IMG/VR virus record: IMGVR_UViG_3300033144_007636
Location: 1 to 22,391 of that record
Strand: one strand, 5' to 3'
Length of the DNA: 22,391 bases
DNA from: a virus
The notes under the pieces were generated by a model. The model worked only from the letters and a program-made list of their open reading frames with translations. It was not told where the DNA came from and searched no databases. Shown one piece after another: positions 6,584 through 20,278 of this stretch. The position numbers and the translations under genes were made by a program. Each line of letters starts with the position of its first letter. Within the stretch, counting starts at the first letter, position 1.

Positions 6584-7042
6584 TTAGGTTCTAATTCTAT
6601 ATTGAAAAACTAAATTCATTCTCAATGCTACTCCTTCATTTTCGCCTAAAATCTCAGGAATATCAACTTCCCCTTCTTTGACTTGAATGATTGTTGTAGT
6701 TGCATTTGAGATGCATAGACTTTTATTTTTTATAAAATCTTCGCAAATAGCGAAAAGGCAAGGATAGAGACTTTTGATCTTGTCTCTCATATCCTTATCA
6801 CATCCGTCATTGCTGACTTCTTCAGTCAAGATGACTTGAAAAGTGTGATCATATGTCTTTGCTCCGTTAGTTCCTGAAACAGGTCTTGCTCCAAGAGGTA
6901 TGAAGCCGAATTTCTTCTCCATAGATTCGGAGGCATTCATTTGAAGATCATAAACATATGAAAGCTCTTCTTCAAATTCTGGACAAGCAATAGGAATTCT
7001 TTCAATAGCTTTGTCACAAATTTCTGAAACGATGTCTGTCAT
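6584..7042 (-). CDS. Putative tail terminator / tail completion protein (152 aa)
   Basis: This small protein sits directly upstream of the tail tube gene, where the tail terminator (lambda gpU-like) is normally encoded. It has an N-terminal helix (residues 1-20), a central basic-hydrophobic region and a C-terminal strand pair ending MNLVFQYRIR, which resembles the last strand of tail terminator folds. Five cysteines are scattered (residues 9, 19, 79, 93, 100) with no obvious metal site. The ribosome-binding site is weak (GGACTAGAA). The function, capping the tail tube and making the head-side interface, is inferred from order and shape; no decisive motif is visible. Confidence 0.55.
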   Translation of the reverse strand: MTDIVSEICDKAIERIPIACPEFEEELSYVYDLQMNASESMEKKFGFIPLGARPVSGTNGAKTYDHTFQVILTEEVSNDGCDKDMRDKIKSLYPCLFAICEDFIKNKSLCISNATTTIIQVKEGEVDIPEILGENEGVALRMNLVFQYRIRT

Positions 7043-7045
7043 TTT

Positions 7046-7876
7046 CTAGTCCAGTGAAAGCATTGTTGTAGTTGTTTGATTCAATTCATCAAGATCTTCT
7101 TTCCCATCATCATCAATGTCAATTCTTGAGACATATGCATCAAGGAGATCTCCGGCTGTTGCTTCATATCGAAGCCCTTGAGTTTCCCACTTGTCACCTT
7201 CTTTGTCTGACTTCTCTTCTAAAAAGTATAAGGCCAGCGCTTTATAAGCTGAAGCAAGTCTCATTTGTTCAATGTCAAAGAAGTCGAATTCATTCACTTC
7301 ATCAATATAAGATCCTGAAGTCAAAGATCCTGTTGGATCTTGTTTGATCTTCACATTTCCTCTTGAATTCATTTCTCTGACAATGTGATCCTTTGCAAGA
7401 GAAATTTTAGAGATCAAGCTCTCTCCCTTGTTTAGCTTTGAGATGACATTTGTTTTGATGTCAACTAGATCTTGATTGTTGCAAAAAACTACTCCAACTC
7501 CTTTGAGCTTTGTTCCTGGGTCAAGGGCAGTGTCAGTTTTGATTTCAACAAACATTTTCTTGAGTGAAGAAGCTTCTGTCTCAACAATGTCTTCAGGTCT
7601 TTTGAATTTGATGAATCCTGATCTTGTGAATCCCTTTGTTTCATCTATGATTTCCAATGACTGATTCCCGTCTTCGTTCTCATAGGTAGCTACCAACTTT
7701 GCAGAGGCTGTTGAAGGTGTTGATAGTTCAAAATAAATTAAAGCAAAAGGTTTTCTAAATCCAACTCGGAGAGTTTGAGCCGGAGTCAATTCAAAATCGA
7801 CTTCATCGGTTGAAAAGGATGACATTTCATTTGAGATGTCAGTTGTTTCATTTATAACTGAGAAGAATTCTTTCAT
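7046..7876 (-). CDS. Putative head-tail connector protein with C-terminal EF-hand-like loop (276 aa)
   Basis: Residues 1-135 look beta-rich, while residues 140-250 are helical (a KLNKGESLISKISLAKDHIV segment, then FFDIEQMRLASAYKALALYF). The helical half resembles head-tail adaptor proteins of the gp6/gp15 type, and the gene lies between fibre and tail terminator genes. An unusual feature is the 12-residue segment at 253-264, DIDDDGKEDLDE. It fits an EF-hand loop at ligand positions 1, 3, 5, 9 and 12 and has Gly at position 6; position 8 is Glu rather than a hydrophobic residue. A helix precedes it. Calcium binding at the neck would be plausible but is inference. The ATG has GGAT upstream and begins four bases after the previous stop. 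Confidence 0.5.
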   Translation of the reverse strand: MKEFFSVINETTDISNEMSSFSTDEVDFELTPAQTLRVGFRKPFALIYFELSTPSTASAKLVATYENEDGNQSLEIIDETKGFTRSGFIKFKRPEDIVETEASSLKKMFVEIKTDTALDPGTKLKGVGVVFCNNQDLVDIKTNVISKLNKGESLISKISLAKDHIVREMNSRGNVKIKQDPTGSLTSGSYIDEVNEFDFFDIEQMRLASAYKALALYFLEEKSDKEGDKWETQGLRYEATAGDLLDAYVSRIDIDDDGKEDLDELNQTTTTMLSLD

Positions 7877-7879
7877 AGT

Positions 7880-8356
7880 TTATCCAAATATCATTTTATA
7901 GATTCCTTTCGGCTTGATGAAATCTATCGGTTTTTTACTAGGTGGAAAGATCCAAGGAACTGCTCTTCTAACAAATTCAGAACAGTTGAAATCGTCTTCT
8001 CCCTTTGAAAATAGTTTAACATGGAAAGCTTCATAAAATAAAACACCAACATTCTGAAAGGCTGCGTAGGGCTTCTGAAGGTGCATAAAAGTGTAGGTCA
8101 TGAAGACTTTGAATTGTTGATGACTAATATCGTACTTCTTTGATCTGACAATGATGTTCTCAGCTTCCCACTGACTTCGCTCCATCAAATGAACTTCTCC
8201 ATGAGATGCTTCGGCTATCATGTGGAGTCTTGTCACTTCACAATAAAAAGAAATCGAGCAATGAGAATATTCGGTCCACTGATAGAGCCGTATAATCCAA
8301 GAGAAAGGAACGAAGAATCTTCTAGGTCTTGAAAATAGAAGTTCTATTTTTCTCAT
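7880..8356 (-). CDS. Permuted papain-like (YiiX/YaeF-type) cysteine peptidase or amidase (158 aa)
   Basis: Two motifs appear in the order of circularly permuted NlpC/P60 enzymes: a His first (EYSHCSISF, His32), then a catalytic-type Cys near the C-terminus (FNCSEFVRRA, Cys125). Between them, AEASHGEVHLM (47-58) matches the usual strand and turn after the His. CSE-hydrophobic-V is characteristic of the YiiX/YaeF-like permuted group. No signal peptide or membrane segment is seen, though residues 14-26 are hydrophobic. It is encoded among fibre and connector genes, so it is probably a virion-associated or assembly enzyme. Cleavage of peptidoglycan peptides during entry, or processing of a virion protein, are both possible. 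The start overlaps the previous stop (TAATG) with GGTGAT upstream. Confidence 0.7.
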   Translation of the reverse strand: MRKIELLFSRPRRFFVPFSWIIRLYQWTEYSHCSISFYCEVTRLHMIAEASHGEVHLMERSQWEAENIIVRSKKYDISHQQFKVFMTYTFMHLQKPYAAFQNVGVLFYEAFHVKLFSKGEDDFNCSEFVRRAVPWIFPPSKKPIDFIKPKGIYKMIFG

Positions 8357-10915: not shown

Positions 10916-11854
10916 TTAAACTAATTCAGCATTTGGAGATTTTGCTGACTTTGCAATCACAAGCGCTTCTTGCTCGATGATTCCATATTTCATGCAGCCT
11001 TTCCATCCGACATTTAAAAATCTGTTCAGCTTATCGTTTTGAGAGATAACCTGAGTTGGATCTTGAGAAACTGCTTTCCCTAGAGCGTTGAATCCCATGA
11101 AGTATGAAGTATAGACATCAATACCACCGGCACCGGCTCCGGCTTCGATAGTTGCAAGGTTATCCTTGATGATGCGAAATCCCTTAAACATCCCAACTTC
11201 ATTTTTTAGGATTTCTCCTGGCACTGCATACTTGTGAGTGTCTTGCCAAGTTCCAACAGCTGTTCCACTTCTGATAGAAGTGATCACATTATCATGTTGA
11301 AGAGAAACAAAATCTCCACCGGCTTGCGGTAGTCCCATAGAGTTTTTAGATCCAAGAGCTGAGAAAGCTTTCTCCATTAGATCAGCATCAATCTCATCGG
11401 CAGCGTCTACGTTTGCAACGGCTGTTGCATCTCCACCGAAAAGAACTCTTGTTGAAGCGTCCATAGCTTCAAGAGCAAGTTTGTTCATCAAACGTCCGGC
11501 ATGAATACCAACTAGCGCAGCGGCAGCAACATTTGTTTGACCTCCGGACTGAAGATTTGAAAGTGAAGTTGTCGTGATGACCTTTCCATGTTCTTCAGGC
11601 AAGAGAAGAACTTTCTCATCTGACATTGCTGTCGAATCAGGATCTTCTCTTTCAAGAAGTGGAGTTGTGTCAAGATCTAGCATTCCATAACGAGTGAATT
11701 CAATTGATTTTGCATCAATGTCTCTTTCATACGTCACGAATTGATCAGCAATCCCGTCAGCTCTTTGTGATAGTTGAAATTGTCTATCAAATTCATTGAT
11801 AGCGTTGTCATCTAGTTCAGCGGTCCCTGTTAGGACTTGAGTGTGATCTGCCAT
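10916..11854 (-). CDS. Major capsid protein, HK97 fold (312 aa)
   Basis: The protein follows the scaffold gene, is followed by a strong terminator and has an excellent AAGGAAGG ribosome-binding site, all as expected of the most abundant virion protein. Its pattern fits HK97-fold capsid proteins of the N4 gp56-like or related group. It has an N-terminal arm, then ERDIDAKSIEFTRYGML (43-59), a conserved spine helix (AAAALVGIHAGRLMNKLALEAMD, about residues 111-132), a P-domain region (GLPQAGGDFVSLQHDN) and a C-terminal segment with FKGFRIIKDN and VGWKGCMKYG. There is no fused protease. At 312 residues it is close to the family norm, and scaffolding is supplied by the separate upstream gene. Confidence 0.85.
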   Translation of the reverse strand: MADHTQVLTGTAELDDNAINEFDRQFQLSQRADGIADQFVTYERDIDAKSIEFTRYGMLDLDTTPLLEREDPDSTAMSDEKVLLLPEEHGKVITTTSLSNLQSGGQTNVAAAALVGIHAGRLMNKLALEAMDASTRVLFGGDATAVANVDAADEIDADLMEKAFSALGSKNSMGLPQAGGDFVSLQHDNVITSIRSGTAVGTWQDTHKYAVPGEILKNEVGMFKGFRIIKDNLATIEAGAGAGGIDVYTSYFMGFNALGKAVSQDPTQVISQNDKLNRFLNVGWKGCMKYGIIEQEALVIAKSAKSPNAELV

Positions 11855-17621: not shown

Positions 17622-17833
17622 TTTGATTTTTCCTTTTTTGCATATTGATCATCAAACATGACATCAATGATGTCTTGAATTGATGTGGGTGAATTGATGA
17701 ATCCGGAGTCATATCCGAAGACTATTGTGTTGCCGTTCTTTCCCTTCATCATGAAGCCGAATTCTCTGAAGTTAGTATGACAAGAAACATTGTTCATGTT
17801 GGGAATGTATAGATGAAGGTCATGATAGTTCAT
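17618..17833 (-). CDS. Unrecognised small protein between TerS and TerL (71 aa)
   Basis: The ATG overlaps the TerS stop (ATGA) and its own stop overlaps the next start, so the three genes are translationally coupled. The sequence is mixed alpha/beta with HLYIPNMNN, FGFMMKGKNGNTIVFGYDSG and a helix SIQDIIDVMFDD. It has one Cys and no membrane segment. I do not recognise a family. The tight position between small and large terminase suggests a role in packaging or in timing of it. Confidence 0.55.
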   Translation of the reverse strand: MNYHDLHLYIPNMNNVSCHTNFREFGFMMKGKNGNTIVFGYDSGFINSPTSIQDIIDVMFDDQYAKKEKSK

Positions 17834-18399
17834 ATTGGATCAGCCTCTTCAGTGAAATTGAATCCTATAGTTTTCTTTCCGTTGCCGTTTCCTTCTTCAG
17901 GCTCCGGCTTGTCACTCCACTTGTCACGCTGGCGATTGTTGAGCCAGTATTGTTGCGCTCTAACATCTCCCTTGATTTCAACAACTGTGATCTCAGTCCC
18001 GATGACGTTTCCATCATCATCAAGAATGTCTTTTGAGACTGACTCTGTTCTTCCCACGGCATTCCTAAAAAGAGCTGAAGTGACTCTTGAATCAGCCTCT
18101 TTTTTCCAGTCCTTCATGGAGTCTATAACTTCTTCAGTGAAGAACTCTTTTTTCCAGTTGTAGAAAGTTTGTTTTGATATGTTGAAGGCAAGACAAACTT
18201 CTTTGATTGTCCTTCCTCCACGGAATAGATTCTCTATAACTTGAAGATAAGAATCATTCCATTTCGTATGACGTTGAGGCTCCTTCTTTAAAGGAGACTT
18301 GTTGACCTTTTTTTTGACAGCTTTTTTCTTAGTTGCTTTCTTTTTTGCAACTTTCTTTTTTGCCTTCTTCTTCGATGTGGTTTTCTTTTTTACTGCCAT
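17830..18399 (-). CDS. terS: Terminase small subunit with Lys-rich N-terminal tail (189 aa)
   Basis: The small terminase recognises phage DNA for packaging. A helix-turn-helix lies at residues 64-83 (TIKEVCLAFNISKQTFYNWK), followed by a helical region and a strand pair with DDDGNVIGTEITVVEIKGD and AQQYWLNNRQRDKWS, a C-terminal pattern common in TerS proteins. The unusual part is residues 4-34, with 19 Lys in a KKKA/KKKV-like repeat, similar in style to histone H1 tails. I start at the ATG of MAVKKK. The longer frame from a TTG 17 codons upstream would run through a -10 box and has no ribosome-binding site. The chosen ATG also lacks one and lies six bases after TATTAT, so the mRNA may be leaderless. 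The gene opens the late operon. Confidence 0.78.
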   Translation of the reverse strand: MAVKKKTTSKKKAKKKVAKKKATKKKAVKKKVNKSPLKKEPQRHTKWNDSYLQVIENLFRGGRTIKEVCLAFNISKQTFYNWKKEFFTEEVIDSMKDWKKEADSRVTSALFRNAVGRTESVSKDILDDDGNVIGTEITVVEIKGDVRAQQYWLNNRQRDKWSDKPEPEEGNGNGKKTIGFNFTEEADPI

Positions 18400-18434
18400 A
18401 TATTTATAATAGGCACGGATTTTTGTTTCAGCAA
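18397..18434 (-). promoter_or_regulatory. Candidate leaderless-type promoter of TerS operon
   Basis: TATTAT (18406-18411) lies exactly six bases before the TerS ATG, which would place the transcript start on the A of the ATG. A weak TTGCTG (18429-18434) sits 17 bases upstream as -35. No Shine-Dalgarno sequence is present. Confidence 0.5.
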
Positions 18435-18462
18435 ACGAATTTCTTGTCAACGGAGCTTTTTA

Positions 18463-18499
18463 GTTGGTGAAATGATGCAAAGCTTTTGAAATCACCAAC
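18463..18499. promoter_or_regulatory. Inverted repeat between divergent TerS and plus-strand gene
   Basis: GTTGGTGA (18463-18470) and TCACCAAC (18492-18499) are perfect inverted arms 21 bases apart, extendable to 11 bases with one mismatch. The right arm covers the -35 region of the plus-strand gene. No T-run follows on either strand, so it is more like an operator than a terminator. Confidence 0.45.
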
Positions 18500-18514
18500 A
18501 AAATAAAAAGATGA

Positions 18515-18529
18515 TATGATGACAGTATG
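18515..18529 (+). promoter_or_regulatory. Candidate extended -10 six bases before ATG (plus-strand gene)
   Basis: TGATATGAT gives a TGn-extended -10 (TATGAT at 18515-18520). The ATG begins six bases later and no Shine-Dalgarno sequence precedes it, so a leaderless transcript is likely. No good -35 is seen, as is usual for extended -10 promoters. Confidence 0.5.
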
Positions 18530-18763
18530 AGAAGGCTGGCCGTTGTTCTATTCGTTTTGACCGTTGTTATCTATTCAGAAAATGAAAAAACCAGGATGAT
18601 CAAAGTCTATGACTATAATGATGAATCAATCGAACATCATTGTGCTGAAGGCGTTTCAAGATCTGAATGCATGAATCCGAAGCCGAAAGAAGAAAAGAAA
18701 GTTGATTCTATTTCCTACGAAGATATTCAAAACTTTGTGATTCATGGTCCCTATTTGTTCTAG
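18527..18763 (+). CDS. Small exported protein, the only plus-strand gene (78 aa)
   Basis: The product begins MRRLAVVLFVLTVVIYS, a typical signal peptide or membrane anchor with two Arg and a hydrophobic core. It is followed by an acidic/polar part with CAEGVSRSEC (Cys pair about residues 39 and 48), a Lys/Glu stretch and a C-terminal SYEDIQNFVIHGPY. If exported, the two Cys could form a disulfide. It stands alone, divergent from TerS and convergent with a 46-codon gene, sharing the CTAG stop palindrome. Such isolated exported genes in phages are often morons (superinfection exclusion, envelope change) or lysis accessories; neither is proven here. No ribosome-binding site is present. The start is supported by the -10 box and by the signal peptide starting at its ATG. 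Confidence 0.65.
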   Translation: MRRLAVVLFVLTVVIYSENEKTRMIKVYDYNDESIEHHCAEGVSRSECMNPKPKEEKKVDSISYEDIQNFVIHGPYLF

Positions 18764-18900
18764 TCATCTTCATAAACATATTCAACTTCTTCAAGAGGCT
18801 CTTCATATTCTCCATCTTGGAATTCTCCATCCGCTTCAGATCTCTCTCTGAGTTTCCTTTTTAATTTCTTCCATGAAGGAGGCTTTTTAGTCGTGGTCAT
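18760..18900 (-). CDS. Small charged protein after the phosphoesterase (46 aa)
   Basis: The ATG lies 14 bases inside the 3' end of the phosphoesterase gene, after an AGAGAAAGAGAAG purine tract. The first 20 residues are basic (KKPPSWKKLKRKLRERS) and the last 25 acidic (YEEPLEEVEYVYEDD), so the protein is bipolar and probably disordered or a partner-binding peptide. Its stop shares the CTAG palindrome with the plus-strand gene. It is the last minus-strand gene of its unit. No family is recognised. Confidence 0.5.
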   Translation of the reverse strand: MTTTKKPPSWKKLKRKLRERSEADGEFQDGEYEEPLEEVEYVYEDD

Positions 18901-20224
18901 CTTCTCTTTCTCTTGAGTAGGTTCTTCCATCAATCACGGTCCAGTTCTCATTTGTGAAATGAATTTTCTGAATGCATTCTTTTGTTCTTGTGTTGATGAC
19001 TACTTCGAGAAAGCCGGTGTTCCATCCGTTGAGATTGTCGATATAGGTGGCATCTTTGACGTGCATTCCTGGCGTTTGAGTCCATGAGTGAGACTTTGCA
19101 AGTCCAGTGAACTCATCAAGAATAGCGTATGATTCAAGAAGTCCTAAATGATGATGTCCGTTTGATCCTGACATTTTCTTCAGTCTCTTATCGGGAATGT
19201 GAGCAAAGACAAATGAGTCAAAATAGATTTGAAAGTTCTTCTTTGCATCATCTTTGATTTCTTTTTTTGAATAGACTCCTAGATCTAGTTTTGAAGTCCA
19301 GTTGATTTGAAATTCATCTAGTCCAAAAATATCTTTGAAGGAGAGTCCCATGACATCGGAGAGAAGGATCTTCACATTCGGAGTTGCATCCGCAAGAAGT
19401 TTCAAGAGTCTCATCTCATGATTTCCACAAATCAAATCAATCTGAGAGTCAGGACAAACTTCTCTCAGTGGAGCAAAGACTCTTTCTCTAACAAAATCAA
19501 AGCGGCTCTTGATGTCATAGCGCCTAGGGTCTACAACATATCTTCCGAATTCAAGAAGATCATAAATGTCTCCATTGAGAACAATAACATCCGGTTGTTT
19601 GATTCTGCATTCCTCTATAAAGACGGAGAGTGAAAACTCGCAACATTCCTTGTCGTGAAGATCACTCATTGCAAGAATTGTTTTGATGTGAAAAGGTCTT
19701 TCCGGTTTTTCATATTTCTTATAATAAGGAAGAACTTCTCTTGAAAAGAAATCTCTATAGTGCTGAACTGAAACGGCTCTTGCTTGTTGAATTTCAATTC
19801 GGTGTTGATGTCTTGAGAGTTCAAGATCAGCCTGTCTTTTGAACTCTTGAAAAGATCCGAAGTGAACACTCCAAGTAGAATCTGAAAAGCTCCCATGTTC
19901 TCTATAAAACATTCGGGTGATTGTTTTTCCCCAGTGTTCTTTTTGAAGAGATCTAAGATCTTCAATGAGATCTTCTTTCTTTGCTTCAGGATCATATTTC
20001 TTTTCATTCTCTGATAGCAATGATCTTTGAGATTGAGAAAGAGACTTCACCCAGGATTGCTCTCCCTGTCTTTGAAATTCTTTCCATGATCCGAAGTGTT
20101 TATAAATTTGAGAGAGTTTGATTTCGGTGACAGCAACAAAAGGTCTTCTTGAGAGAGCTTTTGACTTGTCATCTTTCCCTGATTTTAGATCAACATACTG
20201 TTGAAGAAGTTCCTTTTCTGTCAT
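18887..20224 (-). CDS. Calcineurin-like metallophosphoesterase with two homing-endonuclease-type repeats (445 aa)
   Basis: Residues 180-420 hold the metal-binding motifs of the superfamily in order: SDLH (Asp188, His190), GDIYD (Asp219, Asp222), GNHE (Asn268, His269), AH (342) and GHHH (357-359). Members cleave phosphate mono- or diesters, including DNA ends. The N-terminal part has two related units, about 1-55 (ending HFGSWKEFQRQGE) and 84-133 (EDLIEDLRSLQKEHWGK, ending HFGSFQEFKRQAD). They fit the helical 'homing endonuclease associated repeat' found beside HNH domains and thought to bind DNA. No HNH motif is present. This suggests a DNA-directed phosphoesterase or nuclease. The gene is unlinked to capsid genes but next to the packaging block. 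It has no ribosome-binding site; an extended -10 lies six bases before the ATG. Confidence 0.8.
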   Translation of the reverse strand: MTEKELLQQYVDLKSGKDDKSKALSRRPFVAVTEIKLSQIYKHFGSWKEFQRQGEQSWVKSLSQSQRSLLSENEKKYDPEAKKEDLIEDLRSLQKEHWGKTITRMFYREHGSFSDSTWSVHFGSFQEFKRQADLELSRHQHRIEIQQARAVSVQHYRDFFSREVLPYYKKYEKPERPFHIKTILAMSDLHDKECCEFSLSVFIEECRIKQPDVIVLNGDIYDLLEFGRYVVDPRRYDIKSRFDFVRERVFAPLREVCPDSQIDLICGNHEMRLLKLLADATPNVKILLSDVMGLSFKDIFGLDEFQINWTSKLDLGVYSKKEIKDDAKKNFQIYFDSFVFAHIPDKRLKKMSGSNGHHHLGLLESYAILDEFTGLAKSHSWTQTPGMHVKDATYIDNLNGWNTGFLEVVINTRTKECIQKIHFTNENWTVIDGRTYSREREDDHD

Positions 20225-20236
20225 GTAGAAATGATA
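20222..20236 (-). promoter_or_regulatory. Candidate extended -10 six bases before phosphoesterase ATG
   Basis: TGCTATCAT gives a TGn-extended -10 (TATCAT at 20231-20236) followed by six bases and the ATG. No Shine-Dalgarno sequence and no convincing -35 are present, so a leaderless transcript is predicted. Confidence 0.5.
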
Positions 20237-20278
20237 GCATAGAAATCAAGAGAGAAAAGTTTGCCTGATTTCTATGCT
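20236..20278. promoter_or_regulatory. Perfect 13-bp inverted repeat upstream of phosphoesterase
   Basis: AGCATAGAAATCA (20236-20248) and TGATTTCTATGCT (20266-20278) are perfect inverted arms separated by 17 bases. The dyad abuts the -10 box and spans the -35 region. As RNA it would form a strong hairpin, but no T-run follows on either strand. Operator is my first guess, with factor-dependent termination or mRNA end protection as alternatives. Confidence 0.6.

Follow-up and report, generated by a model that had tools for sequence, protein, structure and literature searches.

Leaderless genes of the TA-led (TANNNT) type, in which the first T of the hexamer precedes the start codon by about 12 bp and a Shine-Dalgarno (SD) sequence is absent, have been surveyed in cellular genomes and occur in 8 of 33 delta-proteobacterial genomes as well as in Actinobacteria, Deinococcus-Thermus and other groups; Bdellovibrio is unnamed in the text of that survey and phage families are untreated (Zheng et al. 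2011, PMC3160421). In Deinococcus-Thermus, the TANNNT motif is strictly spaced about 6-7 bp before the ORF, needs no -35 element, and was identified by reporter assays as a promoter for leaderless mRNA (PMC12340547). In phage lambda, the cI mRNA starts at its AUG and is read through this 5'-terminal AUG; 70S ribosomes bind a 5'-terminal AUG, and E. coli mRNAs carrying both a 5'-terminal AUG and an SD sequence have been described (PMC4965119).

The start type described here is already known from the TANNNT-led leaderless genes; what our analysis adds is that it is conserved in a phage lineage and that Bdellovibrionota show a parallel signal. The genes resemble those of Zheng et al. (2011) in the hexamer distance, the SD absence and a spacing that is significant at the level of the lineage, and differ from them in that they belong to a phage clade with conserved orthologous starts rather than to cellular genomes. 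Whereas about 30% of the ORFs in Deinococcus-Thermus use the motif, here it is used by a minority of unit-first genes (genes that open a transcription unit), most of the others having an SD sequence. Compared with lambda cI, which is likewise a phage case but a single regulatory gene, the genes concerned here are a packaging operon, a phosphoesterase gene and a gene for a small, apparently exported protein.

The window analyzed here is the whole 22,391-base stretch of an uncultured virus record from IMG/VR. Most of its genes lie on the minus strand, where the gene for the terminase small subunit (TerS), which has no SD sequence, heads the packaging and structural gene series and is followed by two small genes, TerL and the rest of the series (Table 1). 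The identities of TerS, TerL and the phosphoesterase come from family searches. A small plus-strand gene diverges from TerS and encodes a protein that, from its hydrophobic N-terminus, is apparently exported, and the phosphoesterase gene is preceded by a 60-base gap containing a hairpin. Judged from this gene layout, all three genes begin a transcription unit, and for the phosphoesterase and the small gene the ATG is the first possible start after the in-frame stop. The phosphoesterase has an HNH-endonuclease-associated repeat domain N-terminal to its calcineurin-like phosphoesterase domain. Its gene is convergent with the small gene both in the window (18527-20224) and in a related viral locus, L009 (5995-7955), and the pairing is conserved in this respect. 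A search with the 3.4-kb region around the three starts found no nucleotide relatives among 50,697 phage records, and protein matches in named phages were dropped from the start comparison as too distant.

Table 1. Genes, promoter hexamers and inverted repeat around the three starts (window coordinates)
Feature	Position	Strand	Remarks
Terminase small subunit (TerS)	17830..18399	-	PHROG 309 terminase small subunit, E 3e-23
-10 hexamer TATTAT of the TerS operon	18406..18411	-	6 bases before ATG
-10 hexamer TATGAT of the small gene, TGA extension	18515..18520	+	6 bases before ATG
Small gene, 78-residue protein	18527..18763	+	L009 homologue, BLASTP 3e-10
Phosphoesterase, without SD	18887..20224	-	PF18780 5e-12, PF00149 1e-4, PHROG 20266 1e-59
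-10 hexamer TATCAT of the phosphoesterase, TGC extension	20231..20236	-	6 bases before ATG
Perfect 13-bp inverted repeat	20236..20278 (arms 20236-20248 and 20266-20278)	-	Between the stop of the upstream gene and the phosphoesterase promoter

In the original prediction, TATNAT precedes the ATG of these three genes by exactly six bases and all of them are described as SD-less, and each site could be confirmed: TATTAT-AAATAT-ATG at TerS (18397-18411, minus strand), TATGAT-GACAGT-ATG at the small gene (18515-18529, plus strand) and TATCAT-TTCTAC-ATG at the phosphoesterase (20222-20236, minus strand), with ATG as the start codon in 3/3 genes and no SD 4-mer in the region from -20 to -5 at any of them. 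The TGn extension reported for two of the three boxes was borne out as well, being canonical at the small gene (TGA-TATGAT) and the phosphoesterase (TGC-TATCAT); at TerS (TGCC-TATTAT), there is one base too many between the TG and the box. The statement that nearly every other gene has an SD sequence was right for the unit-first genes but somewhat too strong as a general one, the SD 4-mer being present in 22 of the 32 curated minus-strand genes. Most of the remaining SD-less genes, namely g6584, g7046, g7880, TerL, g18760 and g21517, directly adjoin or overlap the preceding gene and may be coupled to it in translation; g20852 has nothing more than a weak GGGA, and g22003 is located at the edge of the window. 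Among the SD-less unit-first genes of the window, the hexamer is found at the identical spacing in 3/3.

Across both strands of the window, TATNAT-N6-ATG occurs five times against 0.65 expected, and five or more matches arose in 0 of 100 shuffles. The remaining two matches (6938 and 16615) are coincidental in-frame Tyr-Asp-x-x-Met codons, in the 152-residue gene at 6584 and in TerL, respectively; therefore, the pattern alone is no proof. These two plainly coding coincidences, the AT-richness of the region (62%) and the poor -35 boxes (a promoter scan found no good or convincing one at any of the three promoters) would fit the explanation that AT-rich upstream sequence matches TATNAT by chance and that the transcripts have long conventional leaders on which initiation is A-rich and S1-dependent. 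We consider this explanation very improbable in view of four orthologous or syntenic starts that are conserved and of a clade-wide peak only one base wide (see below).

The -10 hexamer of a sigma-70 promoter ends at about -7, so that, with six bases in between, the A of the ATG becomes +1. The transcript starts are accordingly predicted at 18399 for TerS, 20224 for the phosphoesterase and 18527 for the small gene. In the proposed mechanism, sigma-70-type promoters with a -10 box, TAnnnT, ending six bases before the ATG would drive the three genes, RNA polymerase would begin the transcript, a leaderless mRNA, at the A of the ATG, and the 5'-terminal AUG, not an SD sequence, would be what the ribosome recognises. 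The leaderless class would consist of genes opening a transcription unit, with most genes further down that unit using SD sequences. While the motif, its spacing and the SD absence are read directly from the DNA, the actual 5' ends and the leaderless translation are what we infer from them, and we regard this explanation as very probably correct for all three genes.

Relatives of the window carry corresponding starts as follows: First, the phosphoesterase homologue of L009, which is 64% identical, starts at the matching alignment position with TACAAT-TAGAGT-ATG and has no SD sequence. Second, the small-gene homologue of the same locus (7722-7955, minus strand), which is convergent with the phosphoesterase gene and whose initiator Met is aligned, starts with TGG-TATCCT-GGAAGT-ATG. 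Third, TerS starts with TAAAAT-AAATTC-ATG in L001 and with TAAACT-GTTTTG-ATG in L002, the two closest TerL relatives, although the window TerS is distant from both (31% identity); in L002, a weak AGGT overlaps the hexamer. The relatives thus retain TA at hexamer positions 1-2, T at the last position and the distance of six bases from the ATG. Conservation in related phages, as far as it had been expected, holds for TAnnnT at six bases, with the other bases changing, but not for TATNAT itself, which we dropped as the conserved motif.

A lineage-wide positional profile drew on about 80 viral loci that contain TerL relatives, supplemented by a few other retrieved relatives. After gene calling based on codon usage and the removal of near-duplicate upstream regions, genes with ATG starts, the only ones taken into the profile, were classed as unit-first or not and by the presence of an SD 4-mer in -20 to -5; TAnnnT was counted at every distance, and rotation of each gene's upstream 30 bases served as the null. 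Among the SD-less unit-first genes of the related phages, TAnnnT stands six bases before the ATG in 18 of 123 cases against 4.2 expected (the highest of 2000 rotations was 12), and the neighbouring distances give 1 case at five bases, 2 at seven and 2 at eight. At six bases, the hexamer was found in 2 of 217 SD-led unit-first genes and in 7 of 150 SD-less internal genes, and its frequency before all 26,439 ATGs of the loci is a flat background of 2.2%. With the window left out, the count is 15/117 (3.97 expected), which was reached in none of 5000 rotations; the closest clade, a set hand-picked from the TerL ranking, gives 11/29 (1.34 expected). TAnnnT is short, and chance should account for about 4 of the 18 phage cases; the listed members L011 and L060 look like such cases. 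The argument that the spacing at unit-first genes speaks against chance is nevertheless upheld by a one-base-wide peak that is found at SD-less unit-first genes only and by the conserved orthologous starts, both the restriction to unit-first genes, as judged by layout, and the conservation being direct readings of the sequences. In L017, the minus-strand gene starting at 11581 encodes a 68-residue lipoprotein-like protein (MKIIGFFLLVFLTSCG...) behind TGC-TATAAT-N6-ATG, a further leaderless-type start at a small exported gene.

The same profile bears on the explanation that the -10 boxes are real and that the transcription start is displaced by one to three bases, which would leave a leader of 1-3 bases. 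The choice of start site by sigma-70 commonly varies by a base or two, which counts for such a leader, as do the extension of the excess to seven and eight bases in Bdellovibrionota (see below) and a variant in L023 with a hexamer eight bases before an upstream ATG. Against these points, the one-base width of the phage peak makes a short leader quite unlikely, and we retain the A of the ATG as the predicted start.

The start type of TerS varies among the relatives. In more distant ones (L006, L023-L025, L030 and L031), TerS is SD-led, so the leaderless class is not fixed at TerS and the start type changes within the lineage. In L023 (2975), L024 (4622) and L025 (4989), a TerS promoter with TGC-TATACT is followed by a short leader, about 15 bases long, that contains an SD sequence, and in L003 (4854-4902), TACATT-TTATAA-ATG is followed by an in-frame SD-led ATG 48 bases on. 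The latter arrangement resembles, in sequence layout only, the E. coli mRNAs with both kinds of start signal, and differs from that of the window TerS. The TerS layouts of L023-L025 and L003 are possible intermediates between leaderless and leadered starts, and the two forms appear to interchange at the head of the orthologous TerS operon.

Two inverted repeats accompany the promoters of the window. The perfect 13-bp repeat (arms AGCATAGAAATCA and TGATTTCTATGCT, 17-base loop) immediately precedes the phosphoesterase -10 box and, as RNA, folds into a hairpin of -18.9 kcal/mol (z -4.9) with a poor U-run after it; it probably serves either to terminate the upstream transcript or as an operator. 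The other repeat, 12 nt long and 92% complementary (18459-18503), is located between the divergent TerS and small-gene promoters. With one repeat abutting a -10 box and the other between two promoters, both might be operators of repressor-controlled promoters at which leaderlessness is incidental. This is unlikely, as the two repeats are unlike in sequence and position, a similar repeat was not found at L009, and the 13-bp repeat is equally well explained as a hairpin ending the upstream transcript; moreover, repressor control would be compatible with leaderless transcripts.

As a positive control, plasmid MP1 of Deinococcus radiodurans, an organism known to have this mechanism (PMC12340547), gave 6/45 against 0.64 expected in the same pipeline, while E. 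coli gave 1/29 against 0.53 expected and no peak. With this difference between the controls, the orthologous TAnnnT at six bases and the lineage peak, the leaderless reading put forward in the original prediction is well supported in silico.

The search for a host pointed to Bdellovibrionota. The only clear TerL relative among bacterial-genome contigs, with 43% identity, was found in a MAG labelled Bdellovibrio sp.; a prophage search of 369 Bdellovibrionota genomes gave three weak partial matches, the phosphoesterase was not found in these 369 genomes, and when the L001 TerS was used for an additional scan, the only gain was one more copy of the L002 contig. We tentatively take Bdellovibrionota as the best-supported host lineage, a weakly supported assignment. 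In Bdellovibrionota chromosome stretches, the SD-less unit-first genes show TAnnnT at six bases in 21 of 235 cases against 6.0 expected, with 12 at seven and 11 at eight bases. The signals of single genomes (loci L129-L158) amount to 8/85 in G012 and 7/48 in G035 for TAnnnT six bases before the ATG, an excess that suggests leaderless genes in Bdellovibrionota; the peak is absent from G022, another member of the group (0/43), and thus the class is not universal there. If the host is in Bdellovibrionota, leaderless genes are probably already within the capacity of its ribosomes and polymerase. An escape from translational control by the host, which had been offered as a possibility for leaderless mRNAs, is unsupported and need not be invoked, since the likely host lineage itself appears to use the same start class.

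As for the biological reason, we infer with considerable doubt that, in what is probably a Bdellovibrionota-infecting lineage, leaderless promoters may form a conserved regulatory class heading the late packaging operon and small exported-protein genes, and that orthologous operons may switch between leaderless and SD-led forms in the course of phage adaptation to host translation or to growth phase. Leaderless starts would be a conserved trait of one uncultured phage lineage, its terminase operon included, and Bdellovibrionota chromosomes carry the same signal, the host lineage itself being uncertain. Leaderless starts can be misplaced by gene callers whose scoring favours SD sequences. The orthologous operons with and without leaders would provide natural pairs for testing the role of the leader in phage.
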